From Halomarina oriensis (GTDB lineage: Archaea; Halobacteriota; Halobacteria; Halobacteriales; Haloarculaceae), in the NCBI RefSeq assembly GCF_009791395.1, contig NZ_WSZK01000007.1, positions 62,001-126,000 on the forward strand: DNA of 64,000 bases, given 5' to 3'. Position numbers and translations under genes: made by a program. The notes under the pieces were generated by a model. The model worked only from the letters and a program-made list of their open reading frames with translations, made no database searches and was not told the origin of the DNA. Positions 1,719 through 9,151 of the stretch are shown here, piece after piece (position 1 is the first letter of the stretch; each line of letters opens with the position of its first letter).

Positions 1719-2388
1719 ATGGACCTTGGAGACCGGACGATTGTGGTCACCGGTGGGAGTTCGGCAATCGGTCGATCGATCGCACTCGCGGCACCGGACT
1801 GGGGGCAAACGCCGTCGTCGCCGACCTCCGACGGGAGCCTCGTCGTGACGTCACCCCGACGGTTGATGCTGTTCGCAACGACGGTCAGCAAAGCGAACTC
1901 GTCGAAGCAGACGTCACCAGGCTCGACGAACTACGAGCGACATCGTCGGAGAACTGGCAGCGCTCGCTCGAAACGAACCTCATAGGGACGTTCAACGGCT
2001 GTCGAGCGGTAGCTGAGCGGCTGGTTGACGAAGAGGCTGGTTCGACTTGTCAACATCGCCAGTGCTGGGGGTGTCGTTGGAGTTCTGAACTCCGCGCCCT
2101 ACAGTGCAGCGAAAGGCGACATCGTCGCGCTCACTCGCCAAGTTGCGGTGGACTTCGCCCGAAACGGCCTACGGGTGAACGCGGTATCTCTCGGGTTCAC
2201 CGATACGGGGATGTTCCGACAGGACACCACGACGGAGTCGAGTCGTATGCAACACAGCAGACACCGATGGGTCGGTTCTGTCGCCGTGAAGAGGTAGCCG
2301 CTACCGTAGTGTTCCGATTCGGTTGTAACGGAGCTTCATAACGGGGCAGAGCATGGTTGTCGACGGCGGGGACACCGTTCAGAGAACG
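1719..2388 (+). pseudogene. Broken short-chain dehydrogenase (SDR)
   Basis: Three frames together give one classical SDR. The start MDLGDRTIVVTGGSSAIGRS carries the TGxxx(A/G)IG cofactor motif. A second frame continues with the central fold and ETNLIGTFNGCRAVAERLV. A third holds VNIASAGGVVGV, YSAAK (catalytic Tyr/Lys) and NAVSLGFTDT, and the end MVVDGGDTVQ lies near 2353-2382. The frames are joined by shifts. The segment that should carry the NNAG motif is missing, and a stop sits near 2298. The gene is therefore decayed, not expressed as a single enzyme. Substrate is unknown. Confidence 0.8.
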
Positions 2389-2850: not shown

Positions 2851-3234
2851 TCATGCATTACAGAACTGTTCGAGGGAGGGTTCGGTCGCTTCGTCGTCCG
2901 AGAGCACAGTCGTGAGACCCCGTACTGCTCTTCGAGTGCCGTATACTCTGATTCTGCTCGGGAGAGCGGTGAGGAGTTCCTCTGTGACGTCGGACTCTCC
3001 GCGGAGTGACCGATATATCGCACCGACTACGGGGCCCGGATCGGACCACGCTGCAGTCTCGATGAGTACCTCTCGCGTGACGCCGACGCTCTCGGTCAGG
3101 ACGAGCGAGCGGAGGAGGGACCGCACGTATCGCTGCCACTGCCAGCAGTGGCGTGACGGAGACGCGTGCCGGAACGAGTACGTCGTTCCGGTCGGGTCAG
3201 AACTCGACGAGTAGCCCAAGACACAAGCTGACAC
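2851..3234 (-). CDS. Hypothetical protein or gene remnant
   Basis: A 127-codon frame with a GTG start. The first ~30 residues look random, but from about residue 33 (RYVRSLLRSLVLTESV onward) it has helical, acidic, protein-like composition and ends SLEQFCNA. I do not recognise a family. It lies directly left of the origin repeats. It could be a real small haloarchaeal protein or the decayed end of a longer gene. Confidence 0.3.
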   Translation of the reverse strand: MSACVLGYSSSSDPTGTTYSFRHASPSRHCWQWQRYVRSLLRSLVLTESVGVTREVLIETAAWSDPGPVVGAIYRSLRGESDVTEELLTALPSRIRVYGTRRAVRGLTTVLSDDEATEPSLEQFCNA

Positions 3235-3266
3235 GAGAGGGGTAGCCGAGGGGGAAGGAGGGGGGG

Positions 3267-3285
3267 ACCCCCCTCGCGGATGTAA
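3267..3285 (-). repeat. Origin recognition box-like repeat 1
   Basis: Reverse-orientation copy, ACCCCCCTCGCGGATGTAA on the plus strand. It is preceded by a further G6 run, so that the C-run forms a small hairpin with it. This is the outermost left copy and is a perfect match to repeats 3 and 4. Confidence 0.85.
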
Positions 3286-3384
3286 CGGCGATCAAAGGGT
3301 GGGGGTGAGTCGACGAGTCGCGGTCTCCGGATCCGGCCTCTCGAACCGTGGTGACTGTCCTAGTCGTCTCAGTCGTCGGAGTCG

Positions 3385-3480
3385 TGGGCGGTGGGGTCTG
3401 TTGGTACTGTGTGGTGTGTTGGTGTTGTGTTGTTGTGTTGTTGTGTTGTGCTAGGTACTAGCTAGTACTAGTACTAGAAC
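3385..3480. other. Putative DNA-unwinding element: GT tract plus CTAG cluster
   Basis: From about 3400 to 3450 the plus strand is almost only G and T (repeats of TTGTG), giving strong strand asymmetry. It is followed by five CTAG tetramers at 3451, 3458, 3462, 3468 and 3474. The tract is bounded by repeats 1 and 2. In known haloarchaeal origins an easily melted segment sits between Orc boxes, so this is the best candidate for initial unwinding. Confidence 0.65.
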
Positions 3481-3488
3481 GCGCGAAC

Positions 3489-3509
3489 ACCCCTCCCTCG
3501 CGGATGTAA
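3489..3509 (-). repeat. Origin recognition box-like repeat 2
   Basis: Reverse-orientation copy on the right side of the CTAG cluster. The CTCGCGGATGTAA core is intact but the C-run is interrupted by a T (CCCCTCCCTCG), making it the weakest of the five main copies. Confidence 0.75.
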
Positions 3510-3579
3510 ATCCGCAGCTTTCGACGGTTTCAGAGGTTGGCCGACTCCCTCCAACGTTGCTAGACCCCCCTTCGGAGCG

Positions 3580-3598
3580 TTACATCCGCGAGGGGGGT
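3580..3598 (+). repeat. Origin recognition box-like repeat 3
   Basis: Perfect forward copy TTACATCCGCGAGGGGGGT, followed by a C-rich run. The G-run and C-run can pair as a short hairpin, as in repeats 1 and 5. Confidence 0.85.
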
Positions 3599-3654
3599 CC
3601 CCCTCCCCCGACCTCGGTTCGCCGTCGTGGCCGTCGAGAGGACGGCTGGGTCGA

Positions 3655-3673
3655 TTACATCCGCGAGGGGGGT
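3655..3673 (+). repeat. Origin recognition box-like repeat 4
   Basis: Perfect forward copy of the 19-base repeat, 75 bases to the right of repeat 3. Here the following C-run is absent (GTCCGAC). Confidence 0.85.
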
Positions 3674-3730
3674 GTCCGACAGACGCAAGCCAACCGCTCT
3701 GCGTCCATCGTGGCGCTACACTCGTCCGAC

Positions 3731-3749
3731 TTACAACCGCGAGGGGGGT
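3731..3749 (+). repeat. Origin recognition box-like repeat 5
   Basis: Forward copy with one change (TTACAACCGCGAGGGGGGT), 76 bases to the right of repeat 4 and again followed by CCCCCTCC. The near-constant 75-76 base spacing of repeats 3, 4 and 5 corresponds to about seven helical turns. Confidence 0.85.
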
Positions 3750-3914
3750 CCCCCTCCGCTGTCCACCGTCTGTTCATCCGCGAGTCGGTTGGAGTCGGGT
3801 TCGATACACTCTCTTCCGTCTCTGGGTGCTACTACGCTCTATCTCGTGGGTGTTACATCCGCGACGGAACTGGGACAGGTTTATGTGCAGTGGAACGTAT
3901 CACTGGTCAACGCG

Positions 3915-5141
3915 ATGGCCGACGACGACTCCGAGGGTCGTGACCCACTGTTTCGCTACGACGACCCCATCTTCGAGAAGCAGGAACTCCTCGAGATCAG
4001 CCACGTTCCCGGTCCCGACCGTATCGTCGGCCGCGAGACCGAGATGGGACAGGTTGCAGAAGCACTCAACCCCGCTATCTTCGGCAACCAACCGAGCAAC
4101 CTCTTCATCTTCGGGAAGACGGGAACCGGGAAGTCCCTCGTCTCGCGGAGCGTCACCGAGCGGGTCGTCGTCGAAGCAGAGCGCGAGGAGATCTCGGTCC
4201 GACACGTCTTCATCGACTGTGGTGAGCAGTCGACCGAGGTCTCTGTGGTGAAGACGATCGCACAGCAACTCAACGACGAACACGTCACCGGTCTCTCTGT
4301 ACCGGACAGAGGACTGGGGACCGGGGATTACTACAAACGGCTGTGGCAGGTCATCGATACGTTCGCCGACGTCCTCGTCGTCATCCTCGACGAGATCGAC
4401 ATGCTCGACGACGACGAGGTGCTCAGGAAGCTGTCACGAGCGGGCGAGAACCGGAGTCTGTCTTCGGCGAAGGTCAGCGTCATCGGCATCTCGAACAAGA
4501 TCGACTACCCCGAGAACCTCTCGGAGCGTGTGAAGTCGAGTCTCGCACAGACGGAACTCGTCTTCCAACCGTACGACGCCGAGCAGTTGAAACGAATCCT
4601 GGAGAAGCGCCGAGACGCGTTCCGGAAGGGTGTGCTCGGCGATAGCGTCATCCCGCTCACCGCTGCGCTGGCAGCGGGTGAGCACGGCGACGCACGGAAG
4701 GCTATCGACATCCTGCACAACGCAGGCCTCATCGCGAAGAAACAGAGCGACGAGATGGTTCGTGAAGACCACGTTCGCGCGGGCAAAGAGCAGGCTGAAG
4801 CCGACCGATTCAGCGAGTTGGTCGGTGGTGCTCCCACACAGGTCAAAGCCGTTCTCTACGCCCTGGTGTTGCTCACCGAGCAGAACGACGAAGCGAAGTT
4901 CAGCACGTCGAGAATCTACGACGTCTACAGCCAGGTCCGTGTCGAGTTGAATCTCGACGAACTGTCCGAGCGTCGGGTCCAGGAACTCCTGAAGGAGCAG
5001 AACTTCCTCAACGTGATTCGCTCGGACCGGACCAGCCGTGGCCGTGGCGGAGGCGTCTACGCGACACACCGACTCCTCGAGGATCCGGATATCGTCAAGC
5101 GGGTCTTGCTTCGTGACGACCGACTGGCTACTGAGCTGTGA
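3915..5141 (+). CDS. orc1/cdc6: Orc1/Cdc6 origin-binding initiator
   Basis: A 408-residue AAA+ protein. Walker A is GKTGTGKS (67-74), Walker B is VVILDEID (155-162, acidic pair D159/E160), and sensor 1 contains N194 in GISNKID. An AAA+ lid follows. The C-terminal winged helix (about 310-408) contains the Gly-rich wing RGRGGGVYATH. Length is usual for haloarchaeal Cdc6 proteins. I chose the ATG at 3915, which begins MADDDSEGRDPLFR. The frame is open upstream to 3627 but that part runs through the origin repeats. A TATA-like TTTATG lies about 35 bases upstream. The protein should bind the adjacent repeats and load the MCM helicase. The closest repeats overlap its promoter region, so self-repression is plausible. 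Confidence 0.95.
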   Translation: MADDDSEGRDPLFRYDDPIFEKQELLEISHVPGPDRIVGRETEMGQVAEALNPAIFGNQPSNLFIFGKTGTGKSLVSRSVTERVVVEAEREEISVRHVFIDCGEQSTEVSVVKTIAQQLNDEHVTGLSVPDRGLGTGDYYKRLWQVIDTFADVLVVILDEIDMLDDDEVLRKLSRAGENRSLSSAKVSVIGISNKIDYPENLSERVKSSLAQTELVFQPYDAEQLKRILEKRRDAFRKGVLGDSVIPLTAALAAGEHGDARKAIDILHNAGLIAKKQSDEMVREDHVRAGKEQAEADRFSELVGGAPTQVKAVLYALVLLTEQNDEAKFSTSRIYDVYSQVRVELNLDELSERRVQELLKEQNFLNVIRSDRTSRGRGGGVYATHRLLEDPDIVKRVLLRDDRLATEL

Positions 5142-5335: not shown

Positions 5336-5788
5336 ATGGTCGATCTGGACGGTACTTCGGTGGAGACACTCAGGAAGAAGTTGCGGGAGACCGACGAGAA
5401 GACTCCTGCTCTCCGACTCGTGGTCGCGCTGAACTACAAATACGGCCTCTCTCAGACGGAGATCGCAGACCAGTACGGTATCGCTCGTAAGACCGTCTAC
5501 AACTGGCTCGTCCGGTTCCAGTCACGACCTATCGAGGAGGCGCTCCACGACCGTGATCGCTCGGGTCGTCCATCGAAACTCACCGGCGAACAGCGGCGAC
5601 TCTTCTACGCACAGCTCCGACGATCACCGAAAGCGGTCGGATACGACGCCGACGCCTGGAACCCGTCACTGGCACGACGGCTGGTTCGGGACGTGTTCGA
5701 CGTCGACTACTCGATTCCCCACCTGAGACGCCTCCTGCGTGAGGCCGGACTCGTCCCCGGTGAGGACGGATGGGTCGGTCCGGAGTGA
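5336..5788 (+). CDS. Stand-alone IS630-type helix-turn-helix protein
   Basis: A 150-residue protein with two DNA-binding parts. The first is a helix-turn-helix (GLSQTEIADQYGIARKTVYN, about 40-60). The second is a winged helix of the kind found at the front of IS630/Tc1 transposases (LTGEQRR to LRRLLREAGL, about 78-140). The DDE catalytic domain that follows in transposases is absent and the protein ends cleanly at GWVGPE. No inverted repeats flank it. It follows orc1 in the same direction after 194 bases, with its own AT-rich promoter (AAAACTATTTAC near 5302). It is either a domesticated DNA-binding protein of the origin region or the remaining front half of a transposase. The intact ends favour the first. 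Confidence 0.75.
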   Translation: MVDLDGTSVETLRKKLRETDEKTPALRLVVALNYKYGLSQTEIADQYGIARKTVYNWLVRFQSRPIEEALHDRDRSGRPSKLTGEQRRLFYAQLRRSPKAVGYDADAWNPSLARRLVRDVFDVDYSIPHLRRLLREAGLVPGEDGWVGPE

Positions 5789-6690: not shown

Positions 6691-8634
6691 CTAGATTTCG
6701 GTAATCCGGGTGTAGGAGTCGTCGAGTACCCGTGCGTCCTCGGGTAGCAGCGCGACGACGAGATACGACGCGTACTCCGCGATGTACTCCACGAGATCGG
6801 CGATCCGTTCGGAGTCGATCGCTTCCAGTGAATCGAGGAGCACGAACGGCACCGTCTCGTGTACGTCGTGCACGAGGTATCCCGCCAGGCCGAAGACGAG
6901 TCCGGTCACCTCCCGTTCGCTCTCGGAGAGGTGGTCGATGGTGTCTTCGTACGTCGCCCCGGACGCAGTCGAGCGAACGACGTGGAGTTCGAACACCGTC
7001 CGGTCGACCTTCTGTCGCCCCTCACGGACCCGTTTCTGGACGCGTTCGATCCAGATGCGTTCGAGGTTCTCGTAGCCCAGTATCTCGAGCACGGCGTCCA
7101 TGTGGTCGTTGAACTGCTCCACCGCCTGCTCCTCGATTCGGTCGATTCGCGTCCGGAGGTCCTGCAGTTCTTCGGTGACCGATTCACGCTCCGCTCGAAG
7201 TCGTTCCTCTTCGGTCAACGACTCCTCGATAGCGGCTATCCGGTCGGTTACGTCCTCGGCCTCCGATTCGAGCCGACCGAGCTCGAACTCCAGTTCGTTG
7301 GCCTCCTTGTGGAGTTCGAGGATCTCGTCGAAGTCGTCGGATTCGAGTTCCTCGACCGCCGTTTCGAGGGATTCGATCTCGCCACCGAGTCGGTCGCGCT
7401 TCTCACGGAGGGTCTCGATCTCCTCACGACGTCGGTCCAGTTCGTCGGTGACCTCCTCGTGCTTCTGTGTGAGGCGTTCTTGCTGGCGGCGATGTTGCTC
7501 TCGCTCGCGTTTGGTCTCCTGAAGCTCGTTCAACTCGTCTTCTATCTCGCGCACGTCCGAGAGGGTGTCAGTTCGGACGGACCGCAGTTTCTCGAGCGTG
7601 TCCTCGATTCGCTCCTCTTCGACTTCCGTCCCGCACGTCCAGCAGACGACCGACTCGTCCTCGACGAGCTGGTCGGTCACCGCCCCGTCGGTACGGCTAT
7701 CCTGCAACACCTTGCTCATCTCTGATTCCGTCTCGTCGAGCATCTCCTCGTTGAAACTGATGACGTCCTGGAGGTCGCTCACTCGCTCTTCGAGGCGGCT
7801 CTTCTGGCTTCGGAGCCGCGAGATCTTCCGCTGTAGGTCCTCTTCGTCCGCGGAGAGTTCGGGAAGAGCTTTTCGTTCGGCTTCGAGTTCGTGGCGCTCG
7901 GAGGTGAGCGACTCGATGCTCTTCTCCTGGAGGTCGATCTCCGAGCGGATCCTGTCGAGTTCTGACCGCTGGTCTCGGAGCGCTTCGAGACGGTCTTCGA
8001 GTTCCTCCTGCTCGTCCCGACTCGCCTCGATACTGCCGTCGTACGCTTCTATCTCCGCCTCTTTCGCTTCGAGGTCCGACCGCTTCTCTTCGATATCCGA
8101 CTGGAGCGACGTCCGGCGCTCTTCGAGGGTCGGGAGGTCCCCTTTCAGCGACTCTAGCTCCTCCAGCTCGTCGTCGATCCGGTCCCGCTCGGCTTCGTGC
8201 TCGCTGATCGCCGCTCGAATCGCGTCGACGTCGACGGGCCGCATGATCAACTCGCGGAGGTCTCGTCCCTGGGCGACTGCACGGCGGGCTTCGTTCGACT
8301 CCAGCAGGAACGCGAAGAGGTCGGCAACCACCGGGTCCTCGGCGTATGGCTCCCCGTCGGTCACGACGGTTCCGTCCGAACGTGTCAGCGTCCTCGTGTA
8401 GGTATTCTCGCCGATTTCGAGTTCGACGGTTCCGGTCTCGGCGTCGCCCTTGACCGAAGCGTTGTCGCTCCCCATCGCGGCCATGATCGCCTGCAGGAGC
8501 GACGTTCGGTTCGTCGCGTTGCGGCCCGTCAGAACCGTCACACCGGGGGGTATGTCGACGGCCGTGTCGTCGATTCCGCCGATGTTCTGTACCGCGACCG
8601 AAGCGGATTCCTTCGGCGTCGTAATGGCGTCCAT
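6691..8634 (-). CDS. Archaea-specific SMC-related protein with zinc hook
   Basis: A 647-residue protein. An N-terminal ATPase half is followed by about 400 residues of Glu/Arg-rich coiled coil (roughly 125-540) and a C-terminal ATPase half. At the middle of the coil, C331-W-T-C334 is a Rad50-type zinc-hook motif, so two molecules could join through one zinc. The signature motif is LSESER (569-574). The nucleotide site is unusual: the Walker A position reads GRNATNRTS (37-45) with Arg43 where Lys is expected, and the Walker B region is FVLLDSLEAID (597-607), with no Glu after D601. I recall this variant as typical of the family. Likely a DNA-bridging or segregation factor partnered with RdfA. 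The ATG at 8634 precedes the first beta strand. Confidence 0.85.
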   Translation of the reverse strand: MDAITTPKESASVAVQNIGGIDDTAVDIPPGVTVLTGRNATNRTSLLQAIMAAMGSDNASVKGDAETGTVELEIGENTYTRTLTRSDGTVVTDGEPYAEDPVVADLFAFLLESNEARRAVAQGRDLRELIMRPVDVDAIRAAISEHEAERDRIDDELEELESLKGDLPTLEERRTSLQSDIEEKRSDLEAKEAEIEAYDGSIEASRDEQEELEDRLEALRDQRSELDRIRSEIDLQEKSIESLTSERHELEAERKALPELSADEEDLQRKISRLRSQKSRLEERVSDLQDVISFNEEMLDETESEMSKVLQDSRTDGAVTDQLVEDESVVCWTCGTEVEEERIEDTLEKLRSVRTDTLSDVREIEDELNELQETKREREQHRRQQERLTQKHEEVTDELDRRREEIETLREKRDRLGGEIESLETAVEELESDDFDEILELHKEANELEFELGRLESEAEDVTDRIAAIEESLTEEERLRAERESVTEELQDLRTRIDRIEEQAVEQFNDHMDAVLEILGYENLERIWIERVQKRVREGRQKVDRTVFELHVVRSTASGATYEDTIDHLSESEREVTGLVFGLAGYLVHDVHETVPFVLLDSLEAIDSERIADLVEYIAEYASYLVVALLPEDARVLDDSYTRITEI

Positions 8635-9151
8635 ACCTATCGAACACGTGTGAGCGGTAAAAATATACCTCTTTGGGCGAGAACCGACGGGTTTTCTCGG
8701 CAACTCCGGCAAAAACGCCGTCCTCACGGTGTCACGGCGAAACTGTGGACGTCCGTGGAGTGAGGCGGACGACGACTCCGGAGGATGACCTGCTGCCCAC
8801 GTCGAGGAGTTCCGGTGGCCGACACCGGTGTCGAACACTCCGAACGCCGAGACGTCGTGCAGTCCGACCCGTCGGGACCGAGAGGTGCTCGTGTCATCGT
8901 CGACGGGAAGAACCCACTCGTGGCGGGTTCCGACCCGAAGCCGCTCACCCAGGGGTCGCTCGAAACAGCCCATCGGACCCGCCGTCGTACTCCGCTCCCA
9001 GGCCGTGACCCATCTCGACGAGGGCTACACTCGTCTCGCCGGCATCCGACGACGCTACGAGACCGTCTCGACCCGACCGCGTCGGCCGTCCCCTCGGTGT
9101 CGCTCGTCTTTCGAGCCGGATACGACGCCCGCTATAACAGGCGTATGTCTG
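8635..9151. other. Gene-free stretch upstream of the SMC-like gene
   Basis: This contains the promoter of the SMC-like gene (AT-rich GGTAAAAATATACC near 8656-8669, a likely TATA on the minus strand). Beyond that I find no convincing frame; the open frames here have no family resemblance and random-looking composition. It is possibly decayed sequence. Confidence 0.5.

Follow-up and report, generated by a model that had tools for sequence, protein, structure and literature searches.

Several haloarchaeal origins resemble the locus analysed here. In the survey of Wu et al. 2012 (PMC3528665), origins adjacent to orc1/cdc6 genes carry inverted ORBs ending in a G-string, ORB sequence is tied to the Orc clade, and Orcs were grouped at identities of at least 80%. 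Activity of oriC2-cdc6E of Haloarcula hispanica is controlled via extra boxes, and titration by a downstream ORB cluster has been proposed for it (PMC3936714). Good ORBs do not guarantee activity in a haloarchaeal origin: oriC4 of Haloferax mediterranei is dormant (PMC4595724). Clusters of CTAG upstream of orc1/cdc6 genes, together with an orphan CTAG methyltransferase, have also been described (Blow et al. 2016, PMC4752239; Ouellette et al. 2018, PMC5867850).

The locus was found in a 64-kb stretch of Halomarina oriensis DNA (hereafter the window). It occupies the same intergenic site, directly upstream of orc, and likewise carries inverted G-string ORBs with a sequence tied to the Orc clade. 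Judged from these sequence features, it is very probably an orc1/cdc6-linked haloarchaeal replication origin with its own dedicated initiator. As such it is a well-supported further case of a known arrangement, clade-specific Orc/ORB pairing being already published (Wu 2012, 2014).

Boxes and their probable initiator

The 19-mer TTACATCCGCGAGGGGGGT has five matches in the window at up to three mismatches (three are exact; the others have one and two mismatches), and none are expected from 100 shuffles. Five near-identical repeats had been proposed in the earlier note, and their number is indeed above chance. Its description of inverted sets beside orc1/cdc6 holds as well: two minus-strand boxes on the left and three plus-strand boxes on the right, all with G-string, lie in an intergenic region that directly abuts an intact, full-length gene (Table 1). 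When the 12-mer core TTACATCCGCGA was searched for at up to one mismatch, an additional sixth site emerged on the plus strand, close to the orc promoter (0.2 expected). A core-like box about 140 bp upstream of orc, with degenerate first bases, is present at roughly constant distance in many orthologous loci as well.

Two further proposals stood only in part. Three copies are indeed spaced by 75 and 76 bp, but only 12 of 141 spacings between neighbouring plus-strand boxes in orthologues fall within 70-80 bp; the spacing is therefore not a conserved feature, and we rejected a meaning for it. A C-run does follow two of the plus-strand boxes; the hairpins ascribed to it were dismissed, because the single strand folds no better than shuffled DNA (z = 0.46).

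Table 1. Elements of the proposed origin in the window, and related elements elsewhere in the genome
Feature	Position	Strand	Remark
ORB 1	3267..3285	-	exact 19-mer and G-string
T/G-rich tract	3390..3457	+	TTGTG-type repeats; part of proposed unwinding element
CTAG cluster	3451..3477		five CTAG in 27 bp, adjoining T/G tract
ORB 2	3491..3509	-	two mismatches, G-string
ORB 3	3580..3598	+	exact 19-mer and G-string, followed by C-run
ORB 4	3655..3673	+	exact 19-mer and G-string
ORB 5	3731..3749	+	one mismatch, G-string
Degenerate core (seventh copy)	3772..3783	+	about 140 bp 5' of orc start
Promoter-proximal core	3853..3864	+	without G-string, mini-ORB-like; 27 nt 5' of TATA-like element; proposed orc operator
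TATA-like element TTTATG of orc promoter	3880..3885	+	position conserved relative to box
orc1/cdc6 initiator gene	3915..5141	+	408 aa, AAA+ and winged-helix domains
Triple-CTAG cluster	G000:C7:749778-749831		1.3 kb upstream of oriC1-type orc
Triple-CTAG cluster	C7:11154-11189		no orc gene found nearby
Core CCACCCGAAACG	contig C7		orc at C7:751135-752442, taken as oriC1 type
Core TCATCTCGCACA	contig C3		other orc gene
Core TACACTCTTGAC	contig C28		other orc gene
Core ATACACTCGGAA	contig C31		other orc gene
Core TTTCACCGGAAA	contig C45		other orc gene

The product of the gene matches TIGR02928 along its full length (E 4e-120, above the family cut-off) and resembles the Orc1/Cdc6 chains of PDB entries 2v1u and 2qby. 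Its identity to the oriC1-like Orc of the same genome is 33-42%, which places it outside the oriC1 family.

We wondered whether the repeat is scattered away from orc genes, an outcome named in the earlier note. It is not: TTACANNCGCGA has six sites in the 4.07 Mb assembly, all six at this one origin within the same 600 bp, and a reversed-pattern control gave 0. The only further near-match of the 19-mer (three mismatches) lies on contig C4, upstream of a paralogue 63% identical to the window Orc, where the boxes read TTACAGCGGCGA. The genome has roughly twelve orc genes and a number of further ORB arrays; since distinct cores stand at different orc genes (Table 1), it holds at least seven separate Orc/ORB pairs. 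An automatic ORB caller returned meaningless cores for several orc genes that are divergent or have no origin (L009, L011, L013 and L168 among them), and at L131; the promoter test described below excluded these. Many hits of the 18-mer across the order (CTACATCCGCGAGGAGGG and similar) stand alone and scattered, probably in coding sequence, and were set aside.

Homologues of the window Orc at E below 1e-135 were detected in 117 of 392 sampled genomes of the order, the best relative having 72% identity. Loci coding for Orcs of 60-72% identity (68 in total, from Natrialbaceae, Haloferax, Halorussus, Haladaptatus and Haloprofundus) were compared along with the window and its paralogue. Among the members are Haloferax larsenii, Natronosalvus amylolyticus and Haladaptatus halobius. 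These loci are mutually related, and about 37 are left after near-identical proteins are collapsed. G-string boxes occur on both strands in 65 of the 68; the minus strand holds the outermost box in 63. The common core is of the type TTACA-NN-CGCGA-nnn-GG.GGTGT, in which NN is mostly TC or AA, both in many origins; GGTGT replaces GGTCCCCC in most orthologues. The core was not found upstream of two remoter Orcs (56-57% identity; L119, L120).

The search suggested earlier, for boxes next to orc genes of the same clade, thus yields one core recurring upstream across 68 loci. This core is absent elsewhere in the genome and different cores stand at other orc genes, which bears out the proposed specific Orc/ORB pair. 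As the defining core, TTACATCCGCG alone is too narrow, because two bases of the family core vary.

In the paralogue, core position 8 is changed from C to G and the recognition helix from SERRVQ to SERRTR, i.e. VQ to TR near residues 355-356 of the window Orc. The change from TTACATCCGCGA to TTACAGCGGCGA is paired with the helix change in two paralogues of one genus (L112, L117). This co-change is a correlation, seen in the sequences of a single clade. A pair of paralogues in which core and helix differ together is nevertheless useful for learning how Orc reads DNA.

In the phylogenetic tree, the window Orc and that of locus L052 group with the Natrialbaceae clade (96/93), apart from the paralogue in the window Orc's own genus, although the window branch is long. 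Such grouping suggests later acquisition; horizontal transfer of the window orc may be considered a reasonable, if unproven, explanation.

A copy of the core in the orc promoter

A plus-strand core (up to two mismatches) is found in all 70 loci, 57-91 bases upstream of the start codon used. The distance from its 5' edge to the TATA-like element is 26 or 27 nt in 55 of the 70, whereas distances of the other boxes vary widely. A core devoid of G-string is called a mini-ORB, and the window copy as well as the orthologous boxes are of this kind. Their tails are C-rich instead: tail position 5 is C in 64 of 65 promoter copies, whereas 293 of 320 distal boxes have G there. An atypical tail, CGGAACTGG, is found in the window copy. 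Members of the TTACAGCGGCGA clade carry the altered core in the promoter, too (TTACAGCGGCGG), so the promoter copy follows its Orc.

Is such a copy general? Orc genes of six genomes were analysed, with each core called after excluding the final 100 bp upstream of its gene; the 30 candidate loci were hand-picked from automatic calls. The gene's own core recurs in the orc promoter, on the plus strand and with up to two mismatches, at 16 of 26 loci, 26 being an upper bound on independent cases because some loci are homologous between genomes. On the minus strand it was found at none, and cores swapped between families gave 0.42 promoter matches on average (largest 3.1). In a second count, with the promoter included, the bin from -75 to -50 was the richest in plus-strand copies (16 of 30 loci).

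The promoter-proximal box shares its strand with the remaining right-hand boxes, and certain other orc families retain a G-string in the copy nearest the promoter. Both observations would agree with the box being merely the final member of the origin array, with no promoter role. We consider this unlikely, though not negligibly so. In the window family almost every locus has a promoter box devoid of G-string, and its distance to the TATA-like element is 26-27 nt in 55 of 70. Across families, promoters contain the core of their own gene on the plus strand only, at 16 of 26 loci as opposed to 0.42 with swapped cores.

The position of this core suggests initiator autoregulation, and Orc proteins can serve as transcription factors (Sulfolobus Orc1-2, PMC9738581). 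On balance, we lean towards the view that haloarchaeal orc1/cdc6 genes are commonly autoregulated by a gene-oriented promoter copy of their own core, the copy in this clade being without G-string and placed 26-27 nt before TATA. By analogy with DnaA, repression is slightly favoured as the direction of this control. Our literature search, which covered papers outside subscription, found no published report of an ORB core in an orc promoter.

If autoregulation is real, full boxes would start replication and short boxes would set the level of Orc, both through the same protein. Each of the many initiators of a cell would then possess a private feedback loop, which would explain how each among a dozen can be set separately. 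Archaeal initiator autoregulation would also become directly testable in Haloferax.

Proposed unwinding region, surroundings and possible activity of the origin

The T/G-rich tract between the two minus-strand boxes is the sole place in the 64 kb where at least 37 of 40 bases are T/G (or A/C). It overlaps the least stable 60 bp (3421-3480) within positions 3001-4000. AT-richness of this region is modest (60% at about 3420-3480, compared with a mean of 38%), and between the inverted sets we saw no clear AT-rich element of the classic kind. The adjoining CTAG cluster stands out, as the window contains 15 CTAG where 62 are expected from trinucleotides. Triple-CTAG clusters number three in the genome, one of them at this origin. 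Natrialbaceae and Haloferax orthologues have CTAG clusters too, and in some Haloferax loci (L099-L101) TTGTG repeats are followed by CTAG in the same order.

Rarity of CTAG in the genome and its clustering at the origin are shared with the published CTAG-clustered origins (PMC4752239, PMC5867850), and we therefore dropped this trait as a novelty. As to the orphan CTAG methyltransferase of those reports, its counterpart here is a candidate only: a solitary N6/N4 DNA methyltransferase (L174:891-1988) with a TSPPYPMI motif, to which NCBIfam gave no assignment.

From this arrangement we infer how the origin would work. Orc would occupy all five ORBs that have a G-string, left and right, its winged helix reading TTACANNCGCGA and its AAA+ domain contacting the G-string. 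The T/G and CTAG stretch (3390-3477) would melt first for MCM loading. The core without G-string would let the same Orc bind beside its own promoter and so tune its own synthesis.

No switch of GC skew is seen at the locus or along the 142 kb contig; GC skew is often weak in haloarchaea with multiple origins. The contig is a draft fragment, with no terminal overlap closing it into a circle.

Several neighbouring genes deserve mention. Downstream of orc lies a gene of the RdfA family (PF21811; 5990-6625, plus strand), adjoined by a gene for an archaea-specific SMC-related protein (6691-8643, minus strand); the two form a known rdfA/sph3-type pair (PMC10869688). In L107-L110 (Haloprofundus or close to it), RdfA is also encoded in the vicinity of the orthologous orc. 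Between orc and rdfA, a short IS630-like helix-turn-helix protein is encoded (5336-5788, plus strand), probably a transposase remnant or a solitary DNA-binding part. On the other side of the origin, a short-chain dehydrogenase-like gene (1719-2297, plus strand) is in pieces in two frames and, judged by its translations only, apparently decayed.

The boxes and Orc might persist without firing, or the locus might chiefly titrate Orc. Dormant origins with intact ORBs do exist, the genome has further orc genes and ORB arrays, and the grouping of the Orc with Natrialbaceae suggests that it was acquired later. A titrating role has been suggested for oriC2D of Haloarcula hispanica, a region rich in ORBs, and clusters of ORBs are able to exert negative control (PMC3936714). 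On the contrary, the complete inverted arrangement, intact Orc, promoter-like element and easily melted stretch are all present here, and the genome offers no other TTACANNCGCGA site to keep Orc away from. A dormant, decayed or titrating locus therefore appears improbable to us, compared with a working origin. Still far less credible is that some ordinary transcription factor, and not Orc, uses the boxes as operators: they do lie upstream of a gene, with one copy phased to its promoter, yet the core tracks the Orc clade while neighbouring genes vary among loci, and inverted boxes with a terminal G-string fit published haloarchaeal ORBs (PMC3528665).

Relation to described systems

In contrast to families delimited by the 80% rule (PMC3528665), the core of the window clade is still recognisable at about 60% Orc identity. 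Sharing of boxes thus extends past the family limit, and one ORB core is common to an Orc clade down to this level.

All 12 Haloferax genomes sampled (g60) have an orc orthologue, 64-65% identical, with the same kind of core as the window locus; it probably belongs to one of the genus-wide origins other than oriC1 (oriC2 or oriC3; PMC4595724). The Haloferax loci mainly carry TTACAAACGCGA and TTACATTCGCGA and have more boxes than the window locus. Because none of the 12 genomes lacks the orthologue, it is absent at more than 80% identity from other plasmid records, and oriC2 is dense in CTAG, we infer that the counterpart in H. volcanii is oriC2 or oriC3.

Like oriC2-cdc6E of Haloarcula hispanica (PMC3936714), the window locus combines a dedicated Orc with many ORBs. 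The window orc differs in having no matching core downstream; its extra box sits in the orc promoter.

In DnaA autoregulation, a binding element of the initiator is located in the initiator's own promoter, and this is the trait shared with the locus. PMC3936714 cites the presence of DnaA boxes at the promoter of dnaA. The present case differs in being archaeal, in having a separate core for each initiator and in being known from sequence only.
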